Source of the DNA: Halomonas sp. H10-9-1
GTDB lineage: Bacteria > Pseudomonadota > Gammaproteobacteria > Pseudomonadales > Halomonadaceae
Direction: 5' to 3'
Length of the DNA stretch: 64,000 nt
NCBI RefSeq assembly: GCF_040147005.1
Contig: NZ_JAMSHO010000001.1
Location: forward strand, 2,294,001 to 2,358,000
Shown here: in pieces, positions 8,411-42,750 of the stretch
How positions within the stretch are numbered: the first letter of the stretch is position 1
Layout of the letters: every line of letters starts with the position of its first letter
Program-made: the position numbers and the translations under genes
Notes under the pieces: model-generated
What the model saw: the letters and a program-made list of their open reading frames with translations, nothing else
Told to the model about the DNA's origin: nothing
Databases searched by the model: none

Positions 8411-9550
8411 ATGTCCCCGACAGCGCCATCTTGCGCAGCCAATACCCAGACCCTAGCCACCCCAACCGAGATGCGCCACGACTGGCGCCTCGACGAGATC
8501 GAAGCCCTCTTCGCCCTGCCCTTCAACGATCTGCTGTTCCGGGCCCAACGGGTGCATCGCGCGCACTTCGACCCCAACGCCGTGCAGGTCTCGACCCTGC
8601 TCTCGATCAAGACCGGCGCCTGCCCCGAGGACTGCAAGTACTGCCCGCAGTCGGGGCACTACAACACCGGGCTGGGCAAGGAGAAGCTGCTGGAGATCGA
8701 CAAGGTGGTGGAGCAGGCACGCGCGGCACAGGCGGCCGGTGCTAGCCGCTTCTGCATGGGGGCGGCCTGGAAGAGCCCGCGGGAGCGCGACCTCGAGGTA
8801 GTGCTGGAGATGGTACGCCGGGTCAAGGCGCTGGGGCTCGAGACCTGCATGACGCTCGGCATGGTCGATGGCGCTCAGGCCGGGCGCCTGGCCGAGGCCG
8901 GTCTCGACTACTACAACCACAACCTCGACACCTCGCCGGAGTACTACGGCGAGATCATCACCACCCGCAGCTACGCCGACCGCCTGGCGACCCTTGACCA
9001 TGTGCGCGACGCGGGCATGAAGGTGTGCGCCGGCGGGATATTGGGCATGGGCGAGGCGCCCCGCGACCGCGCCGCCCTGCTTCAGCAGCTGGCGCGTCTC
9101 GACCCGCACCCGGAGTCGGTGCCCATCAACATGCTGGTCAAGGTCCCCGGCACGCCCCTCGAGAACACCCCCGACCTCGACCCCATCGCGTTCATCCGCG
9201 CCATCGCCGTGGCACGCATCCTGATGCCAAAGAGCCACGTGCGGCTCTCCGCCGGCCGCGAGCAGATGGATGATTCAACCCAGGCGCTGGCCTTCCTGGC
9301 GGGGGCCAACTCGATCTTCTACGGCGAGCGGCTGCTGACCACCACCAACCCCCAGGCCGAGCGCGACCGGGCACTGTTCGCCAGGCTCGGCCTGCATCCC
9401 GAGCGCAGAGACACCTGCGTCGATGACGACCAGGCTCAGGCCAATGTGGTGGCCAGCCTCGAGGCCGAACTGGCCCGCCAGGCGGTACGGCGAGCCGCCG
9501 ACCGGGCCGCAGAGCTCGCCTTTGATGCCGGCAGCGCCAGCGGCGCCTGA
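8411..9550 (+). CDS. bioB: Biotin synthase
   Basis: BioB is the radical-SAM enzyme that inserts sulphur into dethiobiotin. The radical-SAM cluster CPEDCKYC has Cys71, Cys75 and Cys78. Other family motifs are [37 protein letters not shown] and RLSAGREQM, and the end of the barrel includes the Arg for the second cluster in VRLSAGR. At 379 residues it is somewhat longer than E. coli BioB because of tails at both ends. An alternative start is the ATG at 8471. It is the first gene of bioB-F-H-C-D, behind a BirA operator. Confidence 0.97.
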
Positions 9551-18059: not shown

Positions 18060-18192
18060 GAATGCCCCTTGCTTGTCGTACCAACCCGTACGCTGCGGGT
18101 CTGTTCTGGGCCGATGCAAGGGAGTTCAGGCGGGAGTGCGGCCAGGCGAGTGGCAACTGCCCTGCCCGAGACCGCCCTCCGCGATTCGGCAT

Positions 18193-18418
18193 GCACTCTC
18201 CGGCCGGTCTCCGGGCTGACGAGCGAAGGGGCAGTACCTCTGCCGGTCCTTCAGGGCAACCGCCTTCCCATGCCTTGGCACAGTGGCATCACGGTCGCTC
18301 TTGTCTCGATCACCGTTGCGGGGGCAGCGTCGGAATGGCGGACTCGCTGGAGGAGCACCGCGCACCGACTTCCCGTTTCACCCCGACGCAGTGACGCGCC
18401 TGGGGCACCCAAGAGTGC
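18193..18418 (-). ncRNA. Cobalamin riboswitch
   Basis: On the minus strand the RNA has closing helix P1 (GCACTCT at 18412-18418 with AGAGTGC at 18193-18199), the 5' segment GGGTGAAACGGGAAGTCGGTG, the core GCTGCCCCCGCAACGGTGA, GCCACTG, AAGGCATGGGAAGGCGG, and a B12-box-like 3' segment GTCAGCCCGGAGACCGGCC. These are the conserved blocks of the cobalamin aptamer in the right order. It precedes btuF by about 130 bp and should reduce btuF-cobB expression when B12 is plentiful. The stretch between aptamer and btuF presumably holds the expression platform. A small hairpin (ACCCG/CGGGT near 18086-18101) is the only structure I see there. Confidence 0.92.
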
Positions 18419-18589
18419 GCACAAGCTAGCAAGGCGCAGCGTCGTGGTCAACGTCGCTGCTCCGAAGGCATGCTCAAAACTCTTGTATTTCAGCTGGTTG
18501 CAGAGGCTATGGCGCAAGCGCCAGCAGGCGGCCGGGCTGGCCCCCATGCCGAGGCCAGTCATGGGAGAAGCTCCCCGGCTCTCGTGCAC

Positions 18590-31756: not shown

Positions 31757-33121
31757 ATGGACAGGTCGCCCCAGTACCAGAAGAACAGCCTTAGCCTTGT
31801 CGGGGCCATCGCCCTGGGAACCGGGGTAATGATCGGTGCCGGGATCTTCGCGCTGACCGGACAGATGGCCGAGATGACCGGCGAGCTGTTTCCCCTGGCC
31901 TTCCTCTCGGCGGCCATGATCGTCAGTTTCAGCGCCTACTCCTACGTCAAGATGTCCAATGCCTACCCGTCGGCCGGCGGCATCGGCATGTACCTTCACA
32001 AGGCCTATGGGCCCACCCTGCCCACGGCCTTCCATGCGCTGCTGATGTACTTCTCCATGGTGATCGCCCAGAGCTTCCTGGCGAGGACCTTCGGCTCCTA
32101 TACCCTGGAGCTGTTCGATGGGGGTAACCGGTCGCTGCTGGTGCCGGCGCTGGGTGTCGGCCTGCTGATCGCCGCCTTCCTCATCAATCTCTCCGCCAAC
32201 AAGCTGATCCAGGGCGTGGCGTCGGTGCTGGGGGTCATCAAGATCGGTGGCATCATCCTGTTCGGCGTGGTGGGCGTTCTGGTGGCCGACACCATCGGTA
32301 TCCGGGCAACGGCCGAGGCGCCGGCACCCGAGGTCTCCGGGTTCCTGGGGGCTACCGCGCTTGGCATCCTGGCTTTCAAGGGGTTCACCACCATCACCAA
32401 CAGCGGGGCCGAAATTCGCGATCCCCACCGTAACGTCGGCCGGGCCATCATCGTCTCGATCGCTCTGTGCGTGGTGATCTATGCGCTGGTGGGCCTCGCC
32501 GTCGCCAGCAACCTGTCGCTGACGGAGATCATCGCGACGCAGGACTACTCGCTGGCCGCGGCCGCACGCCCCGCCCTGGGCGAGGCCGCCGTCTGGTTCA
32601 CCGTCCTGCTCGCCATGCTGGCCACGGCAGGCGGCATCATCGCCAGCGTGTTCGCGGTGTCGCGGATGCTGGCGATGCTGACCGAGATGAAGCTGGTGCC
32701 CCATCGCCATTTCCATATGCCCGGCAGCATCCAGAAGCACACCCTGGTCTATACCATCGTGCTCGGCCTGCTGCTGACAGCGTTCTTCGACCTGAGCCGC
32801 ATCGCGGCACTCGGCATCATCTTCTACCTGGTGATGGATATCGCCATTCACTGGGGGGTGTTGCGGCATCTACGCGATGCGGTGGCGGCCCGCCCGGCCA
32901 TCCTGCTGACCGCGATCGCCCTCGACCTGGTGGTGCTGGCAGGCTTCCTCTGGGTCAAGGCCACCACCGACCCGCTGGTGCTCTACGTTGCCGCCGCCGC
33001 GATGGCCGTCATCCTGGTGGCGGAATACGCCTTTCTTTCCCGGCGATCCGCCCAGGACACCGACCACCATGTTCATTCGCACGACGCGAGTGGCAGCCAC
33101 AGCAGGGAGGATGGAGCATGA
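31757..33121 (+). CDS. APC-superfamily permease
   Basis: The 454-residue product has about twelve membrane helices and the APC N-terminal signature [23 protein letters not shown]. Conserved motifs include [40 protein letters not shown] and [11 protein letters not shown]. The C-terminus is His-rich ([18 protein letters not shown]), unusual for an amino-acid permease. It is the first gene after the MerR-type promoter and overlaps the P-type ATPase start by four bases. A metal-linked role seems likely, but the substrate is unknown. AAGGAG 5 nt upstream supports the start. Confidence 0.88.
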
Positions 33122-35436
33122 CACAGGACCACACCCATGAGGTCACGGACCCCGTCTGCGGGATGACGGTCGATCCTCACCATACCGACCACCGCGCCTC
33201 ACACGCTGGAAAGACCTGGTACTTCTGCTCGGCCAGGTGCCAGCAGAAGTTCGAAGGGGACCCTGACGCCTACCTGCAGGGCGACGACACACCGGCCGAG
33301 CAAGCGCCGCCCGGCACGATCTACACCTGCCCGATGCACCCCGAGATCCGCCAGGAGGGGCCGGGCGACTGCCCCATCTGCGGCATGGCCCTGGAGCCCG
33401 AGACGGTCTCCGCCGAGTCCGGGCCCTCCGAGGAGCTCAAGGACATGACGCGGCGCTTCTGGATCGGGCTGGCCCTGGCACTGCCGGTGCTGGTGCTGGA
33501 AATGGGCGGCCATGTGTTCGGCCTCGATCACCTGATCGCCCCCCAGGTCTCGAACTGGATCCAGCTGCTGCTCGCCACGCCGGTGGTGGTCTGGGCGGGC
33601 AGGCCCTTCTTCGTGCGCGGCTGGCGCTCCATCATGCGGCGCAGCCTCAACATGTTCACCCTGATCGCCATCGGCACCGGGGCGGCGCTGGTCTACAGCC
33701 TGCTGGCGACCATCGTGCCGGGCATCTTCCCCGAGACCTTCCGCCAAACCGACGGCTCGGTGGCGGTCTACTTCGAGGCGGCGGCGGTGATCGTGGTGCT
33801 GGTACTGCTCGGGCAGGTGCTAGAGCTACGAGCCCGGGAGAAGACCTCCGGGGCAATCCGCGCCCTGCTCGACCTGGCCCCGGCCACCGCGCGACGCCTC
33901 GATGACGAGGGCCAGGAAGAGGAAGTCTCCCTCGACAAGGTCCAGGTGGGCGACCGCCTGCGCGTGCGCCCCGGCGACAAGGTGCCGCTGGATGGCGAGG
34001 TGCTGGAGGGGCGCTCCAACATCGACGAGTCGATGGTCACCGGCGAGCCGCTGGCGGTGCGCAAGGAAGCCGGCGATAGCGTAATTGGCGGCAGCATCAA
34101 CGGCCAGGGCTCGTTCATCATGCGTGCCGACAAGGTGGGCCGCGACACCATGCTGTCGCAGATCGTGCAGATGGTGGCCAGCGCGCAGCGCAGCCGGGCG
34201 CCCATCCAGGGGCTGGCCGATAAGGTGGCCGGCGTCTTCGTGCCGGCGGTGATCCTGGTGGCCGTGGTGGCCTTCATCGCCTGGTCGCTGTGGGGGCCCG
34301 CGCCACCCATGGCCTTCGGCCTGATCGCCGCGGTCAGTGTACTGATCATCGCCTGCCCTTGTGCCCTGGGGCTGGCCACTCCCATGTCGATCATGGTCGG
34401 TGTGGGACGCGGCGCCCAGGCCGGCGTGCTGATCCGCGACGCCGAGGCGCTGGAGCGCCTGGAGAAGGTCGACACCGTGGTGGTCGACAAGACCGGCACC
34501 CTGACCGAGGGCAAGCCGCGGGTCACCGAATTGCGCCCGGCCGAAGGTTTCGACGCTCAGGAACTCCTGCGACTGGCCGCGGGGCTTGAGCGCGGTAGCG
34601 AACACCCCCTCGCCCAGGCGATCGTCGACAAGGCCAAGGACGATGGCGTGAGCCTCTCGGAGGCCACGGAATTCGACTCCCCCAACGGCAAGGGCGTGAC
34701 GGGCCGGATCGACGGCCACCACATCGCGCTCGGCAATCGCCTGCTGATGGAGAGCGAAGGGGTAGACCTCTCGGAGCAAGCTGAGGAGGCCGATCGGCTG
34801 CGCGGCGACGGCGCCACCGTGATCTTCGCCGCGGTGGATAGCCGCCTGGCGGGCCTGCTGGCCATCGCCGACCCGGTCAAGGAGACCACCGAGGCGGCCA
34901 TCCGCGCCCTACAGGCCGACGGCATCCGGGTCGTCATGCTCACCGGCGACAACCGCACCTCCGCCGAGGCGGTGGCGCGCCGCCTGGGCATCGATGAGGT
35001 GGAGGCCGAAGTATTGCCCGAGGACAAGGGTCGCGTGGTGCAGCGCCTGCGTGACGAGGGACGCGTGGTGGTGATGGCCGGCGACGGCGTCAACGACGCC
35101 CCCGCCCTGGCCACCGCCGACGTCGGCATCGCCATGGGCACCGGCACCGACGTGGCCATCGAGAGCGCCGGCGTAACCCTGCTGCGCGGTGACCTGACCG
35201 GTATCGTCGAGGCGCATCGGCTGTCGCGAGCCACCATGCGCAACATCCGCCAGAACCTCTTCTTCGCCTTCGTCTACAACGCCGCGGGGGTACCGATTGC
35301 CGCCGGCATCCTCTACCCCTTCACCGGCCTGCTGCTGTCACCGATCATCGCCGCCGCGGCGATGTCGCTCTCCTCGGTGAGCGTGATCGCCAATGCGCTG
35401 CGGCTGAGGCTTGTGAAGCTGAAGTCCGCTGACTGA
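33118..35436 (+). CDS. copA: Heavy-metal P1B-type ATPase, Cu(I)/Ag(I) class
   Basis: This 772-residue efflux pump starts with a YHS domain ([12 protein letters not shown] and CSARCQQKF, residues 8-50). A zinc-ribbon-like metal domain ([26 protein letters not shown]) follows in place of classical HMA domains. The pump core shows the membrane CPC site [13 protein letters not shown], the phosphorylated Asp in [25 protein letters not shown] and [13 protein letters not shown] plus HP marks a P1B-1 pump for Cu(I) or Ag(I). The frame is open far upstream, but the ATG at 33118, with GGGAGG before it, overlaps the permease stop by four bases. A promoter of MerR type lies before the pair. Confidence 0.95.
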
Positions 35437-35564: not shown

Positions 35565-35632
35565 ATATAACGCTTAGGTAAGCCACCGGTACAGAGCGCA
35601 GCGTAGTACCAGTCGGCTTCATCTATTGGACA
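35565..35632 (-). repeat. attC-like site D
   Basis: Core boxes ATAAC (35567-35571) and ATTGGAC (35625-35631) flank arms AAGCC-ACCGGTAC (35580-35592) and GTACC-AGTCGGCTT (35606-35619). The arms pair with one extrahelical base and a 13-nt loop. Order and polarity fit an attC following the minus-strand gene that ends at 35640. Confidence 0.75.
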
Positions 35633-35639
35633 TGATGTC

Positions 35640-36110
35640 TTACTCAAAATAAACCTGATCAGCTGTATAAGGACCGGAAATACTGTGAGCTTCAGAGGGG
35701 CATTTCCCATTCTCCAGCAGAGTTGACCAAAATCTTTGGGCAAAATGAAATTCTTGAAGGTAAAAATACCGACATGCTGCCAAGAGGCTATGCCGACTCC
35801 AAACTGGCCCCGGCCTAGCAGACCCACTAATTTTATAATGATCTTCAAGCTCGTAGAATGAAATAGGTTGCTTGCTATCCCACCTATCACAAAGGAATTG
35901 ATGTAACTCATCCAGTTGTTCTTCTTGAACTTCGAAACACTCAGAGTATGGCTTATGCCAAGGTGCGCCCTCATTCAATAAGGGATATATGCTTTCAGCC
36001 CAAGCAAACGCATAGCTAGGTGTTACATTGCGTTCCGCTGCCGGATTCGTGAATAGTGAAAGTATCTGAAAGCGTTGAAGGGAGAAAAGCATTTCCTTTA
36101 TTTCGCTCAT
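35640..36110 (-). CDS. Cassette gene of unknown function
   Basis: I do not recognise this protein. Its 156 residues look globular, rich in Trp, Tyr and Phe (YAFAWAESIYPLLN, HSLLAACRYFYLQEFHFAQRFW), without signal peptide or membrane helix. Codon use is more AT-rich than in the flanking chromosome. GGAG lies 9 nt before the start. It is followed directly by an attC-like hairpin and preceded by a promoter-like sequence in the adjoining gene-less cassette, so it is read as one mobile cassette. Confidence 0.65.
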   Translation of the reverse strand: MSEIKEMLFSLQRFQILSLFTNPAAERNVTPSYAFAWAESIYPLLNEGAPWHKPYSECFEVQEEQLDELHQFLCDRWDSKQPISFYELEDHYKISGSARPGPVWSRHSLLAACRYFYLQEFHFAQRFWSTLLENGKCPSEAHSISGPYTADQVYFE

Positions 36111-36143
36111 AAAAACTACTCCTATTACTTCGGAATGGACAAG

Positions 36144-36197
36144 CCATAACGCCGATCATCGTGCCTGCTGCTTTTGCCCGCATGTCGGCATTGGATC
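36144..36197 (-). repeat. attC-like site X of a gene-less cassette
   Basis: Core boxes ATAAC (36146-36150) and ATTGGAT (36190-36196) flank imperfect arms GCCGATCATCGTGCC and GCATGTCGGC. The outer box ATTGGAT matches ATTGGAC of site D. The 120 bp between this site and site C contain no open reading frame. Confidence 0.55.
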
Positions 36198-36211
36198 GAA
36201 AGCCAACCATT

Positions 36212-36241
36212 AGCATAGACTAAATTTCTTCGATCGGCCAA
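36212..36241 (-). promoter_or_regulatory. Promoter-like element within the gene-less cassette
   Basis: On the minus strand TTGGCC (36236-36241) and TATGCT (36212-36217) are 18 bp apart, about 100 bp upstream of the cassette gene start at 36110. A GCGGTCT-TCC-AGACCGC hairpin lies just upstream. Confidence 0.45.
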
Positions 36242-36264
36242 GAGCGGTCTTCCAGACCGCCCTC

Positions 36265-36362
36265 ATATAACGCTTGAGTTCAGCAGCGTTTGAGGCGACG
36301 GTCGCTTTTGCGGTAGCAAAATGGGTGGCGGGCCAAACATCCGCTGCAAAGAATTTTTGGGC
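36265..36362 (-). repeat. attC-like site C after the SIR2-HerA cassette
   Basis: A 98-bp imperfect palindrome. Core box ATAAC (36267-36271); inner arms GTTCAGCAGCGTTTG (36278 on) and CAAACATCCGCTGCAAAGAA, with GCTTTTGC-GGTA-GCAAAATG at the tip; the opposite box TTTTTGGGC is a degenerate form of TTGTTRGGC. Size and arm structure fit a long attC. Confidence 0.72.
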
Positions 36363-36372
36363 GGCAACAGGC

Positions 36373-38127
36373 CTATGCGCCGGTATTGCGCGACTGTCGC
36401 CGCATAGCTTCTACCGCGCTTTCGATGCCACTTTCAGAATCCGTCGTCGCCCAGCGATCCCAAAAATCTACGGTTGCGCTGAGAGGCTCTGAATTAGGCG
36501 GATCAACTCGAATTCTGCTGGGAAGCAACGAGGCGTCGCCTACAATGAGAGCCTCACCTATATCAAGAATCGGGAGGCTTTCGGCAATGCCTCCTAGGCT
36601 ATCTGGCAACAGGCCCTGAACGACGCTGCGGTCATCACGGTTCGAGAGTCGCATGGCTATGAAGTTTCCACATTGACTAAGCACCGTTCGACTGACCTCC
36701 GAAGGTCGTTGGCTAATTACCACTAAGGCGACACCGTACTTTCGGCCCTCCTTAGATACTCGCTCAAAATTGTGAACCGCCGAATCGACGATTGAATCTC
36801 CAGCGCCTCTGTTTGGGATGTACAAATGTGCTTCGTCACAAAACACTGCTACAGGATGCCTCTTTTCTTGGGCAGTCCACTGCTGCACGGAGAACAGCAA
36901 GCGCGCGACCAAACCGACTATCAGGGGGAGAACATCGGAGGGCACTTCGGAAAAATCGACGATTTTCACTCCACCACCACCCCGAATAGCCGAGCCGTGC
37001 ATGAGCGTGCCACAAAGTTTTCCAAGCCAATCGTATTCGTTTGTCTCGGCCTCCCCTTCAAACAGGAAACCTAACCGACGATCTTCTCGTTTCGCCTCTA
37101 ACCTTTGAACAAAACGAGTTAAGCGTCCATGGAATGGACCCTGCTTTTGTCTGTTGCCCGACCCATCCACCATTTCCTCATCTAAATCCTTAAATGTCTG
37201 GATAACATTGGAAATATCGTAGGGAATTGGGCTGTCAATGGTGAAATTTTCTTTCAGGCGGTCGTCGCACTGTGCTTCTACTGTGACAGACTTATGTTCA
37301 CGTACGATTTTGGAAAAAACCATGGCCTGGTTAGGTGCGTTTTGGTCGCTTCTATCAACAAGAAGGGCAAGCATCTCCTCATAGGTTAGAAGCCAATAAG
37401 GCAGATAAACTACGCCTTGTTCCAGACCCTCACCGGTTCCAATGTCGCCTGGGCCGGCAATTCGCAAATGATCGATGCCATCCCCCTGTAGCGGTTTATA
37501 TTCACCATGAATATCGAACAATATAGCGTTTGCCATAGGCAGTTCAGCTACTTGCTCTAAGAGCTTTGCCACCGTCCACGACTTTCCCGATCCCGTGCCC
37601 CCTACAATTACCGCATGGCGCTGAAAAAACCTGTTTCCATCAAGCCATGCATCAGCATCTTCGTCCAAGGTGTATTTGCCGATTTTTAACGCATCGGTGT
37701 CGTCAGTCGGGGGAGATGCAATCGCGGTCATGAACTCCGTTAGCTTTTCCCCTTCTAAGGAGAAACAGGGAGCATCAATTTCGGGCACTGATTCCAAAGT
37801 ACGCCGAAAGACATTTGAACGCGATTTCCAGCGATCAAGCAGAGTCCCAATAAGAGCGATGTGGACTAGGTTTTCGACTACTGTTTGCACTGACTCGTCG
37901 AGATCTTCATTCAGACCACTTGAACTCTGCAATGAAGCCTTTCTCAAAATCTTGGTTGTAATTCCAAGCAAATGCTGCCCTGGTCTGGAGCTTCGCAAAA
38001 CAACCAAGTGATTGATTTGAAGTCGCCGGAGCTTGTCCACATCCTCGACAAGACAAATAACATTCCCGGTGTCAACTCCGCTAACTCGACCAAATGCCTC
38101 ATCATCGTCGTAGTCAAATAAGCTCAT
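36373..38127 (-). CDS. herA: HerA-type hexameric ATPase of a SIR2-HerA defence pair
   Basis: The 584-residue protein belongs to the HerA/FtsK superfamily of DNA translocases. The N-terminal HAS-barrel-like region starts with FGRVSGVDTGNVICLV. Walker A is GGTGSGKS at residues 176-183, Walker B lies in VAVFCDEAHLYIP, and VALVVISQRPSEVSRTVLSQCGNFIAMRLSNRDD is the sensor and arginine-finger region. It starts 12 bp after the SIR2 stop codon, with AGGAGG at good spacing, so the two are one operon. In known SIR2-HerA systems the two proteins form a large complex. HerA assembles and activates SIR2 on phage infection. The NurA nuclease, the archaeal HerA partner, is absent. Confidence 0.9.
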   Translation of the reverse strand: MSLFDYDDDEAFGRVSGVDTGNVICLVEDVDKLRRLQINHLVVLRSSRPGQHLLGITTKILRKASLQSSSGLNEDLDESVQTVVENLVHIALIGTLLDRWKSRSNVFRRTLESVPEIDAPCFSLEGEKLTEFMTAIASPPTDDTDALKIGKYTLDEDADAWLDGNRFFQRHAVIVGGTGSGKSWTVAKLLEQVAELPMANAILFDIHGEYKPLQGDGIDHLRIAGPGDIGTGEGLEQGVVYLPYWLLTYEEMLALLVDRSDQNAPNQAMVFSKIVREHKSVTVEAQCDDRLKENFTIDSPIPYDISNVIQTFKDLDEEMVDGSGNRQKQGPFHGRLTRFVQRLEAKREDRRLGFLFEGEAETNEYDWLGKLCGTLMHGSAIRGGGGVKIVDFSEVPSDVLPLIVGLVARLLFSVQQWTAQEKRHPVAVFCDEAHLYIPNRGAGDSIVDSAVHNFERVSKEGRKYGVALVVISQRPSEVSRTVLSQCGNFIAMRLSNRDDRSVVQGLLPDSLGGIAESLPILDIGEALIVGDASLLPSRIRVDPPNSEPLSATVDFWDRWATTDSESGIESAVEAMRRQSRNTGA

Positions 38128-38139
38128 CAGCCTTCCTCC

Positions 38140-39156
38140 TTATGGCTCCAACAACACCCTCATGAAATTACCCAGCTCCCAGATATTTATTCCAAAAAAC
38201 TCCTCACCGGCGATATTTTCGGGGTAATAGGCAATCGAGCCATCCCCTTTTTTTTCAATAGCTAGGAATTTTCTGGGTGGATCATCAAATAGCATTCTTC
38301 TAGCAGCATCTGTGAGTGTATGCGTCAAAACGACCAACGGAATTCCGTCTTGCCTAATCCGGTTGACTAGCTTGGGTTGGACATGTTCGTCGTTGAAGCC
38401 GTAACCAATACACAACAGCACGCGGGATGAAGCTAAGCAACTGTCTGCTTGCGCCATGACTGTACGAAATGGCTCAAGGTGAGCTTGCAGATACTTTGTC
38501 ACTCCAGGGGTGACGATTACTGGTTTCAGACTAGGAAATATTTCCTGCATCATCGGGAGCCCGTGAATCTGTCTGTCCTCTGCCACAAACCAATCAAGAG
38601 AACCGTGCACTTTCCAAACGTTTATTTGCCTTCGAGAAGGTGCAGGGTTAGCGGTTGTAAGCTGCTGGAGCCAACCGTGGGTAAGGCCCGTATACGCTTG
38701 CGCCCCTGCAGCGTTGGCTGCGTATTCAGCCAAACGATCATAGTTCGTAGTTACAACATCGAGCTTGGGATCGGCGACACGCAGAAAGTGCCGAAATGCG
38801 TCCGACAAAGGGTGGAAACTAGCACTCGCTACGATTTCACGATATGCGATTAGGTCTCGCATAGAAATTAGCGACCACGTCTTAAGAACCACCTCGTCGA
38901 GAAGCCGCGGGGCAAGATGGACTTCGTTAAGAGCACCTTCTAAATCCTTACTTGCAGAGAAACTTTCTTCGAAGCTCCCCCACTGTGAAGCTTCGTCAGC
39001 ATTTTCCGGGCAAACCTCAGATAGCAATGTATCACCCAGCTCTTCCATACCAGGAAGACCTAGGGCAATCGATGCACCGCTACCTAAAACGAAGGTGGGT
39101 TTCTCTGACAAGTATCTCTGTGCAAGACCAGCTACAATTTCCAACTGTTCGCTCAT
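38140..39156 (-). CDS. SIR2-domain NADase of a SIR2-HerA defence pair
   Basis: The 338-residue product carries a SIR2-like NAD-binding fold: LGSGAS at residues 24-29, TTNYD at 136-140 with the probable catalytic Asn138, VHGSLDW with His184, and LLCIGYGFNDEHV. The zinc ribbon of protein deacetylases is missing, as in bacterial defence SIR2 proteins that hydrolyse NAD to stop phage replication. Its ribosome site lies against the core box of the preceding attC-like site (GTTAGGAGGG). It is followed by herA 12 bp later. Low GC relative to flanks and cassette context suggest acquisition by transfer. Defence activity here is inferred from the family. Confidence 0.9.
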   Translation of the reverse strand: MSEQLEIVAGLAQRYLSEKPTFVLGSGASIALGLPGMEELGDTLLSEVCPENADEASQWGSFEESFSASKDLEGALNEVHLAPRLLDEVVLKTWSLISMRDLIAYREIVASASFHPLSDAFRHFLRVADPKLDVVTTNYDRLAEYAANAAGAQAYTGLTHGWLQQLTTANPAPSRRQINVWKVHGSLDWFVAEDRQIHGLPMMQEIFPSLKPVIVTPGVTKYLQAHLEPFRTVMAQADSCLASSRVLLCIGYGFNDEHVQPKLVNRIRQDGIPLVVLTHTLTDAARRMLFDDPPRKFLAIEKKGDGSIAYYPENIAGEEFFGINIWELGNFMRVLLEP

Positions 39157-39164
39157 CGCTCCCT

Positions 39165-39238
39165 CCTAACGCCGCTTTGCCGCCCAACGCTTTAAAGCAG
39201 CGGCAGCTTCAGCTGTCCGTCTGACTTTTATTGTTAGA
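39165..39238 (-). repeat. attC-like site B
   Basis: Core boxes CTAAC (39166-39170) and GTTAGAA (39233-39239 region) flank arms GCCGC-TTT and AAAGCAGCGGC. The outer box overlaps the last codons of the two-TM protein gene; the inner box abuts the SIR2 ribosome site. Confidence 0.68.
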
Positions 39239-40084
39239 ATTTTCCTGTTCCCATATTGCTTTACGTTCATCCAACCATCTCTGCCGCTCTTCACTCTCCT
39301 GCCTTCTATCTAGAGATGAATATGTGTTTACATGAAGTCTTTTAGAAGATGACCTTGTCATGCCTTCAATCTGCTCTCTGAGCTTTTTGATATCTCCAGA
39401 CATTTTGTGGAGAGGATCACCACCACCGATCTCTGAAACGTCATCAAACTCTTTAAAGTCGATTACTAGCTCATCAGAATAAGAGTTTCCTTCAACATCC
39501 TCATAAGATGTTGAAATCTTGAAATATGGTGAAAATATATCATCGCCGTCGATTTTTTCTTTCACCTCATAAAAACTAAATAAGAAGCTCTCAAATTTCT
39601 GGTTAATACCAAGCGAATGCAGCCCTTCAGACATTACATGCAACTTTAAAAATTCATCAACTATAGCATTTTCAGTCGCTTTAATTTCATTACCACTCTT
39701 GTCATAAAACTTGAAACGCACGTTTCGCGCAATTCCTTTACCGAGATTACTAATCTCAAGCATCATCAAATTGAATGCTATCCGGCTGCTAAAAAACTTT
39801 ACGGACACGTTAGGACGAATACTCTGTACTCGAAGTTCATTGACCTGCTCAATTTGCGCTTCCCGCAGATACCATGTCTCTTTCGCAAGCACAAAAGTCA
39901 ACACAGCTATCGTAACTGTAGCTATTGCACTGATCCAAGAAGACAACGAATCTGCAGTCAAAATATTGGCCAGCTGAATCTGGCTACCAGCAACAATTCC
40001 CAGCATGAATATTAACGGCGCAGCTACAACTCCAACAACAGCCAATAGAGGAACTATGCTTCGCTCATCTTTACGTTTTGGCAC
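39209..40084 (-). CDS. Two-TM cassette protein of unknown function
   Basis: The 291-residue product starts with two membrane helices (VPLLAVVGVVAAPLIFMLGI and ISAIATVTIAVLTFVLA) separated by a short loop. A basic-acidic helix (KETWYLREAQIEQVNELRVQ) and a beta-sandwich-like domain (RPNVSVKFF, LEISNLGKGIARNVRFKFYD) follow, ending in a charged coiled-coil tail. The start is a GTG with AAGGAGG upstream. I do not recognise the family. Similar two-TM plus beta-domain proteins are common orphans of integron arrays and defence islands. The last codons overlap the attC-like site B. Confidence 0.7.
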   Translation of the reverse strand: MPKRKDERSIVPLLAVVGVVAAPLIFMLGIVAGSQIQLANILTADSLSSWISAIATVTIAVLTFVLAKETWYLREAQIEQVNELRVQSIRPNVSVKFFSSRIAFNLMMLEISNLGKGIARNVRFKFYDKSGNEIKATENAIVDEFLKLHVMSEGLHSLGINQKFESFLFSFYEVKEKIDGDDIFSPYFKISTSYEDVEGNSYSDELVIDFKEFDDVSEIGGGDPLHKMSGDIKKLREQIEGMTRSSSKRLHVNTYSSLDRRQESEERQRWLDERKAIWEQENSNNKSQTDS

Positions 40085-40099
40085 TAACCCTCCTTAAAC

Positions 40100-40172
40100 T
40101 GATAACGCTGGCGTAAGGGGCTGGTTTGGAGCGCAAGCGTAAAACCAGTCCCTTTGACGCCCTGGTTATGCT
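40100..40172 (-). repeat. attC-like site A
   Basis: The clearest attC of the block. Core box ATAAC (40102-40106), arms GGCGT-AA-GGGGCTGGTTT and AAAACCAGTCCC-TTT-GACGCC around a 13-nt loop, and core box GTTATGC (40165-40171). It follows the VapD-like gene stop codon directly. Confidence 0.8.
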
Positions 40173-40549
40173 CAGCCTTGCGCTTCTTGCAGGCTATCTT
40201 GTTCCTCAACCTCTTCGTCAGCAGACGGTGACCCTGCAGCTTGATGTTCGGCGATCAGTGGAGTTACGTCACTCCATTCTTCCATACGGAATACATGAAC
40301 TCGTCGCACGTACTGACAGAAGTTAGGAGCCTGAGTCTTTAGAGTGCTCTGCAACTGCATAATCGCAGTTATTGGGTCCTTCTCCATCTCAGTGTGATAT
40401 AGAGAGCCCTGCGGATGTGCGGTAAAGCCACAGTTTGCCAAAGCGCTAGGAATCTCCGTTTGGTATAAATTGGTGATCTGCGAGTTTGTGAAACCACTGT
40501 CTCGCATACCCTTCGTGTCCACATCGAATGCAATCGCATATTGAGCCAT
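40172..40549 (-). CDS. VapD-like cassette protein
   Basis: The 125-residue product resembles VapD, a Cas2-related ferredoxin-fold family that includes endoribonuclease toxins. It shows QYAIAFDVDTKGM at the N-terminus (VapD: YAIAFDLD), GFTAHPQGSLYH, a helix with TAIMQLQSTLKTQAPNF and VRRVHVFRMEEWSDVTPLI. A disordered acidic tail follows. Two ATG codons are adjacent; I chose the second (40549), since AGGAGG then has 4 nt spacing rather than 1. No antitoxin gene is obvious. Single-gene VapD and toxin-antitoxin cassettes are known from integron arrays. Confidence 0.72.
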   Translation of the reverse strand: MAQYAIAFDVDTKGMRDSGFTNSQITNLYQTEIPSALANCGFTAHPQGSLYHTEMEKDPITAIMQLQSTLKTQAPNFCQYVRRVHVFRMEEWSDVTPLIAEHQAAGSPSADEEVEEQDSLQEAQG

Positions 40550-41116
40550 CATTCCTCCTCATTTTGTGCAACAGGTATTAGACCGCGCGCTTGACATTCC
40601 ACTTGAACGCGCACGCTCGACCACCTCTTATCTTATTGAAAAAAACTGGGAATTTAAGTATAACCGATCGTCGTTCATGCCACATATCCCCAATGAACGA
40701 GCATGCAGCCATTGCCGCCACGACCGCTTTGGGTCGAAAACGGACATATGGAACCAAAACAAAACCGGCGTTTTTCCGGACCGGGGGCTTGGCTCCCTGA
40801 TCCGGAAAAACGCCGGTGAATCGTAGCGTCTGCTGTGTCACGTCATCATCCTGCATCCCTGCCCCTGCGCCGGCCTTTTCGGGCCTTGCTCTCCTGCCTT
40901 GCCATTGCAGCCTAGCTCAGGGGGCTTCGGGCTGCCATGCCGGGCGAGTCGATGGGCGAGCCACGCCATTAGCGCCGGCGTGAAGGCGGCGCGCTCACTA
41001 TATTTCAAGGGATGGACCGCCCTTCGCGCCCGGCCTGCCGCACCAGCAGGTGGCGCATCCTGTGCCGGGTACCTGCACGCCAGCGGGCCTGCCCGGCTCT
41101 CCTGGAGGATAACGAG
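40550..41116. other. Gene-free stretch at the right edge of the cassette block
   Basis: No supported gene lies here. Its left part (40567-40625) has a GCGCG...CGCGC imperfect palindrome with a CAAC box that may be a decayed attC. It contains a perfect 16-bp inverted repeat at 40765-40816, listed separately. To the right, GC content returns to the chromosomal level, so the junction of inserted and core DNA probably lies near 40.8 kb. Confidence 0.5.
40765..40816. repeat. Perfect 16-bp inverted repeat
   Basis: CCGGCGTTTTTCCGGA (40765-40780) and TCCGGAAAAACGCCGG (40801-40816) enclose a 20-nt loop that holds a smaller GGGGGC/GGCTCCC hairpin. It could be a bidirectional terminator or the end of a small mobile element. 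Confidence 0.8.
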
Positions 41117-41719
41117 ATGAGACGCATCCTGTGGGGCGGCGTCATCGCCATGGGGCTGGCGGCGGCAAGCCTGCCGACCGTCGCCCTGATGACCGACGAC
41201 ACCGAAACGATGATCGAGGAACTGCGCGCCGCCATGCAGCGCTTCGAGGACGTGAACATGGCCCTGGCGGAGGGCTACATGCCGGATCCCTCCGGCGAAT
41301 GTGTGAAGGCCGGGGAGCACGGCCTGCCGCCGGAGCTCGGGCATATGGGCATCCACTACCTGCGCCCCGACCTGCTGGGCCTAACCACCACCGAGCCGCG
41401 TGTTGACGGCAGCGGCACCCATACCGACTTCAGGAATCCCGCCATCCTGCTCTACGAGCCCCAGGCAGACGGCTCCATGGTGCTGGTGGGCATCGAGAAC
41501 CTGGTGTTCGCGCGGGCCTGGCAGGAGGCCGGAAACGCCGAGCCACCGAACTTCCTGGGTCGCCGCTGGGACTACATGGCGGAGGATCCGGCCATCCCCG
41601 GCGACCAGGCCCACGGTTTCGAGCCCCACTACGACCAGCACGTCTGGTTCCGCAACAACCCCGGCGGCAACCTGGAACCCTTCAACCCGGCGGTCAGCTG
41701 CGACCTGCGCAGCACCTGA
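41117..41719 (+). CDS. Secreted conserved hypothetical protein
   Basis: The 200-residue product has a short N-terminal hydrophobic segment (ILWGGVIAMGLAAASLPTVALM) that may be a signal peptide. The globular part has motifs EGYMPDPSGECVKAGEHGLPPELGHMGIHYLRPDLLG, NPAILLYEPQADGSMVLVGIENLVF and HYDQHVWFRNNPGGNLEPFNPAVSC. I have seen this kind of sequence in proteobacterial hypotheticals, but no function is established. The start at 41117 has GGAGG 8 nt upstream. It is followed by a GC-rich hairpin. Confidence 0.75.
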   Translation: MRRILWGGVIAMGLAAASLPTVALMTDDTETMIEELRAAMQRFEDVNMALAEGYMPDPSGECVKAGEHGLPPELGHMGIHYLRPDLLGLTTTEPRVDGSGTHTDFRNPAILLYEPQADGSMVLVGIENLVFARAWQEAGNAEPPNFLGRRWDYMAEDPAIPGDQAHGFEPHYDQHVWFRNNPGGNLEPFNPAVSCDLRST

Positions 41720-41724
41720 CCCCA

Positions 41725-41757
41725 AAGGGGAGGCGTCCGGCATGGCCGCCTCCCCTT
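41725..41757. terminator. GC-rich hairpin after the secreted hypothetical
   Basis: 11-bp stem AAGGGGAGGCG / CGCCTCCCCTT with an 11-nt loop, 5 bp after the stop codon and before a convergent gene. Confidence 0.65.
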
Positions 41758-41782
41758 CCCTCAGGGATTCGATGCTCCGCCG

Positions 41783-42142
41783 CTACGCCCCATCAGCGAC
41801 CCGATACCCCAGTGCCGCGAGCCGGCGTTGCTGCGCCGTGGTCAGCGCCAGGCCGGCCTCATCGTCCTCCTCTGAAGAGCCCGCCAGCACCACCATGCTG
41901 GCCTCATCATCGGTGTGCAGCAATCGCTCGCCGCAACGCCGGCACTGCCAGGCATCGAAGCCCCCCGCATCCAACACTACCTCGAGCTCATCGGCGCCCT
42001 GGCCGAGCTGGATGGCCTCCTGGGGCCAGAGGCTCACGGGCTCACCCTCGGCATCCCTGCCGTTGCCGAGGGAGCCACCACACACCAGCAGCGTGACGGC
42101 GCCGCAGTCGCAGGCGAGTTGCCCATAGGGTCCATTGCTCAT
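41783..42142 (-). CDS. Small zinc-ribbon-like hypothetical protein
   Basis: The 119-residue product has two cysteine pairs (ACDCGAVTLLVCGG and WQCRRCGERLLH) that could form a zinc ribbon, and an acidic middle. It ends in a short helix (LTTAQQRRLAALGYRVADGA). No family is recognised. It is divergent from the deaminase gene and convergent with the secreted hypothetical. Confidence 0.65.
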   Translation of the reverse strand: MSNGPYGQLACDCGAVTLLVCGGSLGNGRDAEGEPVSLWPQEAIQLGQGADELEVVLDAGGFDAWQCRRCGERLLHTDDEASMVVLAGSSEEDDEAGLALTTAQQRRLAALGYRVADGA

Positions 42143-42273
42143 GATTGGCTCCTCGGGAAGGGGGTGGCCACAGTGTGGCAGCCGCAGGCGACCCTGCCGA
42201 ACCGGGACCTGGCTTGGCCACAGGAACGCATGGCGTATGCTGGTGGCTCACCAGAACCCAAGGAGCCCTGACC

Positions 42274-42750
42274 ATGATCGATGACACGGACATGACCCAC
42301 CTGGAGCGCTGCGTGGCACTGGCGGAGAAAGGCCTGGAGGCGGGCGACGAACCGTTTGGCTCGGTGCTGGTGAGCGGCGACGGCGAGGAGCTGGCAGAGG
42401 ACCACAACCATGTGGCCGGCGGGGACGCCACTCAGCATCCGGAGTTTTTCCTGGCACGCTGGGCCGCGGAGCACCTGACACCAGAGCAGCGCGCCAGGGC
42501 CACGGTATACACCTCGGGCGAGCACTGCCCCATGTGCGCGGCAGCCCACGGCTGGGTAGGGCTGGGGCGCATCGTCTACGCCAGTTCCTCGCAGCAGCTG
42601 ATCGGTTGGCTCGAGGAGATGGGCGTCACGCCGGCGCCGGTGGCCCCGCTGCCGATCCAGCAGGTGGTGCCGAACGCGGTGGTCGAGGGGCCAGTGCCGG
42701 CCTTCGCCGAGCGGAACCGCGAACTGCACCGGCGCCTGCACGGCGCCTGA
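42274..42750 (+). CDS. Nucleoside deaminase-like protein (CDA fold)
   Basis: The 158-residue product is of the cytidine/guanine deaminase fold. Zinc ligands are visible as the histidine in TQHPEFFLA (His and catalytic Glu, with Pro where Ala is usual) and both cysteines in SGEHCPMCAAAHGW. PFGSVLVSGDGEELAEDHNHV at the N-terminus is like guanine or tRNA-adenosine deaminases. Substrate specificity cannot be read. The start at 42274 is supported by AAGGAG 8 nt upstream. Confidence 0.88.
   Translation: MIDDTDMTHLERCVALAEKGLEAGDEPFGSVLVSGDGEELAEDHNHVAGGDATQHPEFFLARWAAEHLTPEQRARATVYTSGEHCPMCAAAHGWVGLGRIVYASSSQQLIGWLEEMGVTPAPVAPLPIQQVVPNAVVEGPVPAFAERNRELHRRLHGA

Follow-up and report, generated by a model that had tools for sequence, protein, structure and literature searches.

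A SIR2–HerA defense pair as probable cassette cargo

In Halomonas sp. H10-9-1, a SIR2–HerA gene pair is probably cargo of an integron cassette, one of four in an array whose anchor is an attI site without intI; a distant IntI would load cassettes there in trans. The array lies on the minus strand of a 64,000-nucleotide stretch of DNA (the window) and, judged by sequence, begins at an attI site. Every one of the five cassette genes and each of the four sites that are attC or attC-like occupies this strand, in agreement with the initial annotation, which had placed the pair in the same orientation as its neighboring cassettes. That annotation also assigned the block to lower-GC DNA, and GC content is indeed 0.39–0.56 across 35.5–41.0 kb, compared with 0.60–0.71 in the remaining 500-base intervals of 30–46 kb.

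Read from the attI-like site (40572–40609; crossover between G40572 and T40571), which no integrase gene adjoins, cassette 1 (40106–40571, 466 bp) extends from the attI crossover to the R′ box of attC 1 (40100–40171) and holds a 126-aa ORF of unknown function (40172–40552). Cassette 2 (39188–40105) carries a 291-aa ORF of unknown function (39209–40084) that had no PADLOC match and no Pfam match above the cut-off. Its attC 2 (39165–39239) forms the upstream boundary of cassette 3 (36271–39187, about 2.9 kb), the third in the array, which contains SIR2 and HerA and ends in a degenerate attC behind HerA (attC 3, 36265–36362). Cassette 4 (35571–36270), with a 156-aa ORF of unknown function (35640–36110), and attC 4 (35565–35635), the last of the array and altered in its R″ box (AAT), complete the block. 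The initial annotation of the pair had omitted attC 1, attC 4, and the attI-like site. To the left lies a plus-strand ORF (32467–35436) whose 3′ part, on reading alone, is a CopA-like heavy-metal P-type ATPase; the right chromosomal flank (40730–42748, plus strand) is common to four relatives at 84.9–94.4% identity. An Rfam search of the block returned no match.

Both proteins belong to the known SIR2–HerA defense type, as initially proposed. The SIR2-family NADase-like protein (338 aa, 38140–39156, minus strand) matched PADLOC family PDLC04087 (E = 2.4e-109) and Pfam PF13289, as well as PDB chain 8w9l_A (E = 1.9e-8). The HerA-type ATPase (584 aa, 36373–38127, minus strand), encoded after a gap of 12 bp, matched PDLC04105 (E = 6.3e-233), PF01935, PF05872, and PDB chain 8wiv_A (E = 2.6e-47). 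The PADLOC check suggested for the two proteins was therefore positive for each, the catalytic Asn138 and His184 of SIR2 (with Y139 and D140 also present) were found at the positions initially given, and HerA retains its Walker motifs (Walker A GGTGSGKS at 176, DEAH at 431). Among 80 related loci, 79 have a HerA gene directly adjacent to SIR2; among the matches listed, from which near-identical records may be absent, SIR2 relatives shared at most 47% identity. The window pair thus resembles the characterized SIR2–HerA system in gene content and order, PADLOC families, the SIR2 Asn-Tyr-Asp and His residues, and the HerA Walker motifs, but differs in being carried as an integron cassette. Going by published work on the family, a complex of a SIR2 dodecamer and a HerA hexamer would switch on NADase activity upon phage infection, and the ensuing NAD+ depletion would stop the phage.

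Sites bounding the cassettes

Matrix scores of the window attC sites (17.2–24.2) overlapped those of the background, which reached 19.9 over about 98 kb; we therefore added a covariance model. This model (R1) was built from 41 attC sites, none of them from the window, using alignment A2, which has near-uniform site length and took 41 of the 42 reference sites (L242:1800–1871 was omitted). Alignment A1 was dropped as a model basis because its 3′ halves were misaligned. Over both strands of the 64 kb, R1 found three of the four window attC sites (E = 5e-15, 2e-10, and 1e-3) and nothing else. The strongest was attC 1 (64.1 bits, E = 5.3e-15), whose single-strand fold had a z of −4.56, followed by attC 4 (47.6 bits, E = 2e-10), whose fold alone was not significant (z −0.43).

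For the SIR2–HerA cassette, the upstream boundary lies at the crossover of attC 2, matched at 39182–39239 (23.1 bits, E = 0.0013). The crossover box itself is ambiguous: the model chooses GTT 39188, whereas the fold of 39164–39239, in which R boxes pair, gives GTT 39170 the better pairing with R″. The distance from the crossover to the SIR2 start is 13 or 31 nt depending on the GTT box. Behind HerA, attC 3 was unreported by the covariance model even with filters off, its single strand does not fold like an attC, AAA takes the place of the expected AAC in the R″ box, and its matrix score of 17.2 was exceeded at four places in the background of about 98 kb. The R′/L′ half of attC 3, by comparison, is strong (13.4 bits): matches of this kind occurred twice among 197,098 background positions counted on both strands, and the block has just three, at 40106, 36271, and 35571, each on the cassette strand. 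Of the two attC-like palindromes initially described as flanking the pair, the upstream one is thus borne out by the covariance-model check, and the one behind HerA is a strong half-site that the model missed. With a degenerate 3′ attC that the covariance model did not recover, the window copy would be hard to excise and may be no longer excisable.

Divergent SIR2–HerA loci point to the same arrangement. In one pair from the same genus (L092, identical to L273), a same-strand attC lies on either side, with matrix scores of 33.0 and 35.2 from a matrix trained without that locus, and the cassette is about equal in length to that of the window. One A2 site (L273:2084–2155) is identical in sequence to L092:5171–5242; covariance-model matches on L092 are therefore partly by construction, and the matrix was relied on there. 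Across 157 flanks of SIR2–HerA loci, a same-strand attC (score of at least 22, within 500 bp) was present in 10 flanks from 9 loci, and an opposite-strand attC in none.

An attI-like site without an adjoining integrase gene

The window attI-like site matches a 35-nt attI motif without mismatch and is 83% identical over 48 bp to the intI-adjacent attI of the same genome. Four copies of the motif, all with 0 mismatches, are present in this genome: the window copy, the intI-adjacent copy, and two others, which also lack intI. The only intI above the cut-off in the genome is a full gene at C1:2158937–2159866, about 175 kb from the window array, in an integron with its own attI and array. No IntI match was found within the window, so the array is not a complete integron, which has an adjoining intI; with at least two attC sites and no integron integrase nearby, it classifies as a CALIN. 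Relative to five other aligned copies, the window attI is without 27 nt present in those copies. No sigma-70-like promoter (Pc) was found on the cassette strand. Stretches resembling TATACTTAA occur upstream of several attI copies.

Cassette exchange at the locus and between ports

Comparison with relatives places the array boundaries at recombination crossovers. The left flank aligns in four relatives at 89–97% identity. In the best-aligned, a sister species (G003) whose flanks are 97.2% (left) and 94.4% (right) identical to the window, homology breaks at the R′ box of attC 4 (window 35572) and at the attI crossover CTG|TT, and the five window cassette proteins gave no tblastn match in its 16-kb locus. 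Syntenic loci of three relatives hold other cassettes, with crossover break points seen in G003. At nearly 3 kb, the SIR2–HerA cassette is large, as had been remarked, but a larger one, with Avs4 and about 5.3 kb long, occupies the same locus in a sister species. Taken with the array and the attC-flanked L092 pair, the G003 break points support the initial interpretation of the pair as lying in an integron-like cassette. A transposon or prophage insertion was considered and rejected on the grounds that the break points fall at crossovers and that PADLOC and Pfam identified no recombinase among the five cassette proteins. One further relative (G058) shares both flanks, yet no attI motif or modelled attC was found there; the port is therefore not universal.

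Cassettes are also shared between ports. In one genome (G005), a single cassette occurs at both the intI site and an orphan site at 91.6% identity, and none of the four ends lies more than 7 nt from a crossover. At the window-syntenic locus of another genome (G078) lies a cassette that has 2,759 bp (94%) in common with the one standing first at a different orphan port of G012. Each starts TTATATGCCAAAG at the crossover and finishes at an attC, with about 170 nt extra in G078 after the shared start. Untruncated segments shared by non-syntenic ports numbered 32; in one or both loci, the start of 16 and the end of 4 fell no more than 25 nt from a crossover, compared with about 5% (start) and 4% (end) in shifted controls. 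The test is weak when a crossover is needed in both loci, where 10 segments begin, 3 end, and 2 do both.

Census of attI ports in the genus

The attI motif, allowing up to two mismatches, occurred at 101 places in 90 genomes, a lower bound given this mismatch limit; a backwards-read control pattern gave 0 matches across the same genomes. Twelve sites lie by a full intI, 7 by an intI remnant, and 82 by neither. These orphans are defined by having no IntI match beside the site in up to 1.5 kb of upstream sequence (more at some loci), and 4 of the 82 have less than 1.1 kb upstream. Leaving out those 4, and another 4 whose locus shows any IntI-like match, gives 74 strict orphans. Among orphans with at least 2 kb of downstream sequence, an attC (score of at least 24) was found on the cassette strand in 67 of 76 and on the other strand in 1 of 76; with the window left out, along with three orphan loci from which training sites had been taken, the cassette-strand count was 63 of 72. 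For every class of attI site, conservation drops directly after CTGTT. Of 27 genomes with intI above the cut-off, 19 also carry at least one orphan attI.

These data suggest a mechanism in which a single distant IntI would load and exchange cassettes at dispersed attI ports in trans, one recombinase thereby serving several entry points. Extended to the genus, we lean slightly toward regarding the integron as a distributed system, with one IntI and many chromosomal attI ports that each have their own first position.

Alternative explanations

The main competing account, which we consider unlikely, is a plain CALIN relic: a complete integron once occupied the locus and lost its intI by deletion, leaving attI with the cassettes behind, so that service in trans would not be needed. 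Local intI loss is a real route to orphan sites, given that 7 of the 101 attI sites adjoin intI remnants and one site classed as an orphan (L241) lies 1.2 kb downstream of an intI fragment. Moreover, 30 genomes, some of them drafts, have orphan attI sites and no intI above the cut-off, so many ports may be relics. Against this account, 74 of the 101 sites have no intI or IntI-like match, with at least 1.1 kb upstream; the upstream sequence of many orphans is unlike that of the intI-adjacent attI; and the G003 locus, with flanks 94–97% identical, has none of the window cassette proteins.

A different element, or homologous recombination, could have placed SIR2–HerA between two attC sites, in which case the pair would not itself be a mobile cassette, but this appears improbable. 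The degenerate 3′ attC that the model missed would fit such an event, but the SIR2 start only 13 or 31 nt behind the attC 2 crossover, the lack of a recognizable recombinase among the five cassette proteins, and the same-strand attC sites adjoining divergent SIR2–HerA pairs elsewhere favor a genuine cassette. We give very little credence to insertion at a non-classical attG site, or to chance IntI activity, in place of a true attI. IntI can recombine attG sites, according to the accessible parts of PMC12901181 and PMC12444791, and the latter portion describes insertions spread broadly over the genome; here, by contrast, there is one common sequence, and the array starts at a long motif of the cognate attI with four 0-mismatch copies in the genome. 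Our preferred reading remains a cassette array at an intI-less attI that is loaded in trans.

Significance and relation to known systems

The usual picture of an integron has a single integrase, attI, and array, with good expression of the cassettes nearest the promoter, and it has been proposed that CALINs are degraded integrons. If one integrase does serve dispersed attI sites, many CALINs may instead be working outposts, and their annotation would change. Such service in trans would address the expression of distal defense cassettes: more cassettes would be expressible, and large defense cassettes (SIR2–HerA, Avs4, an SMC-like ATPase, an oligonucleotide cyclase) could be kept in separate, independently exchangeable islands.

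Anti-phage genes are already known as cassettes of chromosomal and mobile integrons from Darracq, Littner et al., Getz et al., and a concomitant mobile-integron study, as summarized in the available part of a review (PMC12409362), which describes integron defense systems as streamlined and small, with larger ones of more than two genes absent. The 2.9-kb two-gene cassette of the window and the Avs4 cassette of about 5.3 kb in a sister species, both at intI-less attI sites, differ from these known cassettes and stretch the small-size rule in that portion of the review. Cassettes holding two or three ORFs have been described before, as have Shewanella genomes with both intI and CALINs (PMC9229058, in excerpt). 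A CALIN is listed for Halomonas sulfidaeris in the accessible text of PMC10295459.

Unlike an ordinary CALIN, the window array starts at an attI copy that is shared with the intI-bearing integron and repeated at several loci. The nearest precedent is the Shewanella prophage M16-3, a CALIN with its own attI of the same type as that of the complete integron (PMC9892861, in excerpt); it too is an intI-less array that begins at attI, but in that excerpt it is one prophage case, compared with 82 sites across the genus here. In Xanthomonas, CALINs occupy seven distinct loci away from ilvD and are likewise intI-less arrays at conserved chromosomal positions, and attI is not described there in the part of PMC12444791 consulted. 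A partial search of the open-license integron literature returned no report of a genus-wide set of intI-less attI ports. IntegronFinder limits attI detection to class 1 integrons, according to the accessible portion of PMC9024848, and the attI-port pattern could for this reason be easily missed.

Gene content of the cassette block

The 35.5-41.0 kb block stands apart in composition, with a windowed GC content of 0.39-0.56 versus 0.60-0.71 elsewhere in 30-46 kb. Its minus strand encodes five proteins, transcribed in this order: one of 126 aa, one of 291 aa, SIR2 (338 aa), HerA (584 aa), and one of 156 aa. PADLOC agrees with the initial annotation of the pair as the SIR2-HerA defence type (E 2.4e-109 for SIR2, 6.3e-233 for HerA), and the catalytic Asn and His and the Walker motifs described there as intact are in place: N138 of SIR2, with Y139 and D140, falls in a TTNYD motif at 136 and H184 in KVHGS at 182, and HerA carries the Walker motifs GGTGSGKS at 176 and DEAH at 431. 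The 126-, 291-, and 156-aa proteins had no PADLOC match and no Pfam match above cut-off. By sequence, SIR2 matched PDB chains 8yhx_G and 8w9l_A and HerA matched 8wiv_A, among others; entries 8wld, 8woc, 8wod, and 8wof were retrieved for both proteins. In the portions of the published accounts considered here, a SIR2 dodecamer joins a HerA hexamer, which opens the NAD+ pocket in an NADase-based defence (PMC12198126, PMC11263360); degradation of phage genes is likewise mentioned (PMC12198126). According to PMC11263360, the SIR2 of these systems retains four residues of the DSR2 pocket (Asn, Tyr, Asp, and His), and such residues are present in the window SIR2. We infer that the pair protects its host. 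Elsewhere in the window, a cobalamin riboswitch was found at 18185-18427 (-) (102.1 bits).

A half-site matrix trained on 16 non-window attC sites, from the intI array of this genome and syntenic loci of relatives, gave minus-strand candidates at 40106 (score 24.2), 39188 or 39170 (23.3, 22.2), 35571 (20.0), and 36271 (17.2), against a background (about 98 kb, both strands) with a maximum of 19.9 and 4 places above 17.2. A covariance model built on 41 sites, none from the window, recovered minus-strand attCs at 40100-40171 (E 5.3e-15), 39182-39239 (E 0.0013), and 35565-35635 (E 2e-10), and no further attC in the 64 kb. The last of these, which ends the array, has its R'' box altered to AAT and an unremarkable fold on its own. 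SIR2-HerA had been described as lying between two attC-like palindromes; the one at 39182-39239 holds, whereas the site behind HerA (36271) was missed by the model, even with filters off. This site retains a good R'/L' half, its strength seen at two of 197,098 background positions. Its R'' box, however, is AAA in place of the expected AAC, and it does not fold as an attC would; on these grounds we call it a putative degenerate attC.

An attI copy distant from intI

In right-flank alignments with relatives, homology reaches TAATACCTG/TT in the window and in the sister species, G003, and then ends; another relative, G078, has the same region with small differences close to its end. The attI-like stretch of the window (40572-40609) recurs between intI and the first cassette of the same genome, at 83% over 48 bp. 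Judged from these alignments, the array begins at an attI copy. The genome has one intI above the family cut-off (403.5 bits, C1:2158937-2159866), followed on the expected strand by 7 covariance-model attCs, all minus, none of which served in training. The window attI (C1:2334575-2334609) lies about 175 kb away. Its region (40575-40700) lacks 27 nt found in five other aligned copies, which may alter a promoter or accessory arm. Just upstream, a long G+C-rich, terminator-like inverted repeat (40764-40817) is also present in all four aligned relatives.

Two additional attI copies, at 0.734 and 2.91 Mb, have no intI beside them. Their modules (L156:13912-14125, L157:5952-6165) have 214 bp in common, 99% identical up to the crossover, despite differing flanks, which suggests that the two attI sites were recently copied one from the other or homogenised by gene conversion. 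The first cassette at 2.91 Mb (L156:13063-13953) encodes a protein of 296 aa that contains a penicillin-binding transpeptidase domain and, judged by size, is possibly class D beta-lactamase-like.

Orphan attI sites across the genus

Allowing up to 2 mismatches, the motif CGTTCAAGTNNANNNNCNAGCNNGCNNNNTAATAC was present in 56 of the 90 genomes searched in the genus; read backwards as a control, it was present in none of the 90. All 101 places were examined (103 matches in loci minus 2 duplicates): 12 adjoin a full intI, 7 an intI remnant, and 82 neither. Of these 82 orphans, 74 remain when 1.1 kb or more of upstream sequence and a locus free of IntI-like matches are required. Where 2 kb or more lay downstream of an orphan, an attC (matrix score at least 24 within 5 kb) occurred on the cassette strand in 67/76 and on the opposite strand in 1/76; the corresponding counts were 10/11 and 0/11 for intI-adjacent sites and 6/6 and 0/6 for sites beside remnants. 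Leaving out the window, together with three orphan loci from which training sites came, gives 63/72. Of the 27 genomes whose intI exceeds the cut-off, 19 have at least one orphan attI; a further 30 genomes have orphans and no such intI. When the order was sampled evenly, the motif was found in 5 of 10 genomes of the family, including the window's genome and one congener, and in none of 234 outside it. Just upstream of seven orphans (L192, L198, L206, L214, L242, L244, L277), the CGTTCAAGTCAATAAACGAGC arm is repeated in inverted form, exactly or nearly so, and makes a palindrome, perhaps paired IntI-binding sites.

Defence cassettes in integrons are already established (PMC12409362, in part). 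In the sections considered of earlier reports, one CALIN, from a Shewanella prophage, carries an attI of its own (PMC9892861), whereas the sections on CALINs at conserved positions in Xanthomonas (PMC12444791), in intI-bearing Shewanella genomes (PMC9229058), and in Halomonas sulfidaeris (one CALIN; PMC10295459) describe no attI. Searches of open-licence papers turned up no account of intI-less attI ports (attI-like sites heading cassette arrays) occurring as a set across a genus.

Cassette turnover and the source of integrase

Both flanks of the window locus are common to the relatives G003, G058, G078, and G070. In G003, G078, and G070 the locus has an attI and cassettes other than the window's; in G058 it is a 2.3-kb stretch with no attI motif match and no covariance-model attC. 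The G003 flanks are 97.2% and 94.4% identical to the window's, yet none of the five window cassette proteins was found at that locus. Its last cassette spans about 5.3 kb, unusually large for a cassette of an integron. The gene there for an Avs4-like protein of 1711 aa (L112:6664-11799 (+), PADLOC E 3.7e-146) lies between attCs at reversed-locus positions 9329 and 4006, with model E-values of 1.1e-7 and 1.1e-5; neither attC was used in training. In G070 (L115:3181-5864), the orphan attI is preceded by a reverse transcriptase gene, and a gene for an HNH endonuclease starts just behind the site.

Some cassettes are also common to different ports. In genome G005, the first cassettes of the intI array and of an orphan port match at 91.6%, with all ends at most 7 nt from crossovers. 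In G078, an SMC/AAA-type cassette that occupies the window's locus has 2,759 bp at 94% in common with a cassette of G012, where it is the first at a different orphan port; both open with TTATATGCCAAAG at the crossover and finish at an attC, but the G078 copy has about 170 nt extra following the first 13 bases (L114, at about 2040-2210, behind the attI). Across 32 untruncated segments common to non-syntenic ports, 16 starts and 4 ends lie close to a crossover in one or both loci, versus about 5% of starts and 4% of ends in shifted controls. All four ends lie at crossovers in only 2 of the 32, which counts against exchange between ports.

Cassette insertion at orphan ports is strongly indicated by the sequence evidence. 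Under the proposed mechanism, IntI made from a distant gene would bring cassettes into the orphan attI sites, which it would recognise; that the present IntI acts in trans in this way we infer chiefly from turnover at intI-less ports and the G005 case. The main rival is that local integrons decayed and left their ports behind, which accounts for some ports.

SIR2-HerA and other cargo

HerA lies immediately behind SIR2 in 79 of 80 SIR2 relatives examined. Of 157 flanks of SIR2-HerA loci, each of up to 500 bp, 10 had an attC scoring at least 22 on the same strand (9 loci) and none had one on the opposite strand, and all 22 covariance-model matches up to E 1 in SIR2-relative loci were on the SIR2 strand (one, in L092, being a training site). 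L092, the same as L273 (7,325 bp at 100% identity), has a matrix attC on either side of SIR2-HerA at an intI-less port of another congener (790 nt upstream covered). By its attC context, SIR2-HerA appears to be a recurrent cassette. PADLOC was applied to 90 ORFs, each 230 aa or longer, of 68 orphan-port arrays; the matches listed (E <= 1e-15, 25 of 101 families) include SIR2, HerA, and oligonucleotide cyclase, with one member apiece, and AriA and LmuB, with two apiece. AadA_C was matched by 3 of the 90 proteins.

One element, which opens with GAACTAAAC following GTT, directly abuts crossovers of attI or attC sites: right after attI in L178, L241, L242, and L257, and at about 15028 in L009, the locus of this genome's intI. 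It may target integron crossover sites. L009 additionally carries a Y2_Tnp gene, which we take to be IS91-type, and in L241, L242, and L257 the element is followed by a tyrosine recombinase 35-37% identical to IntI.
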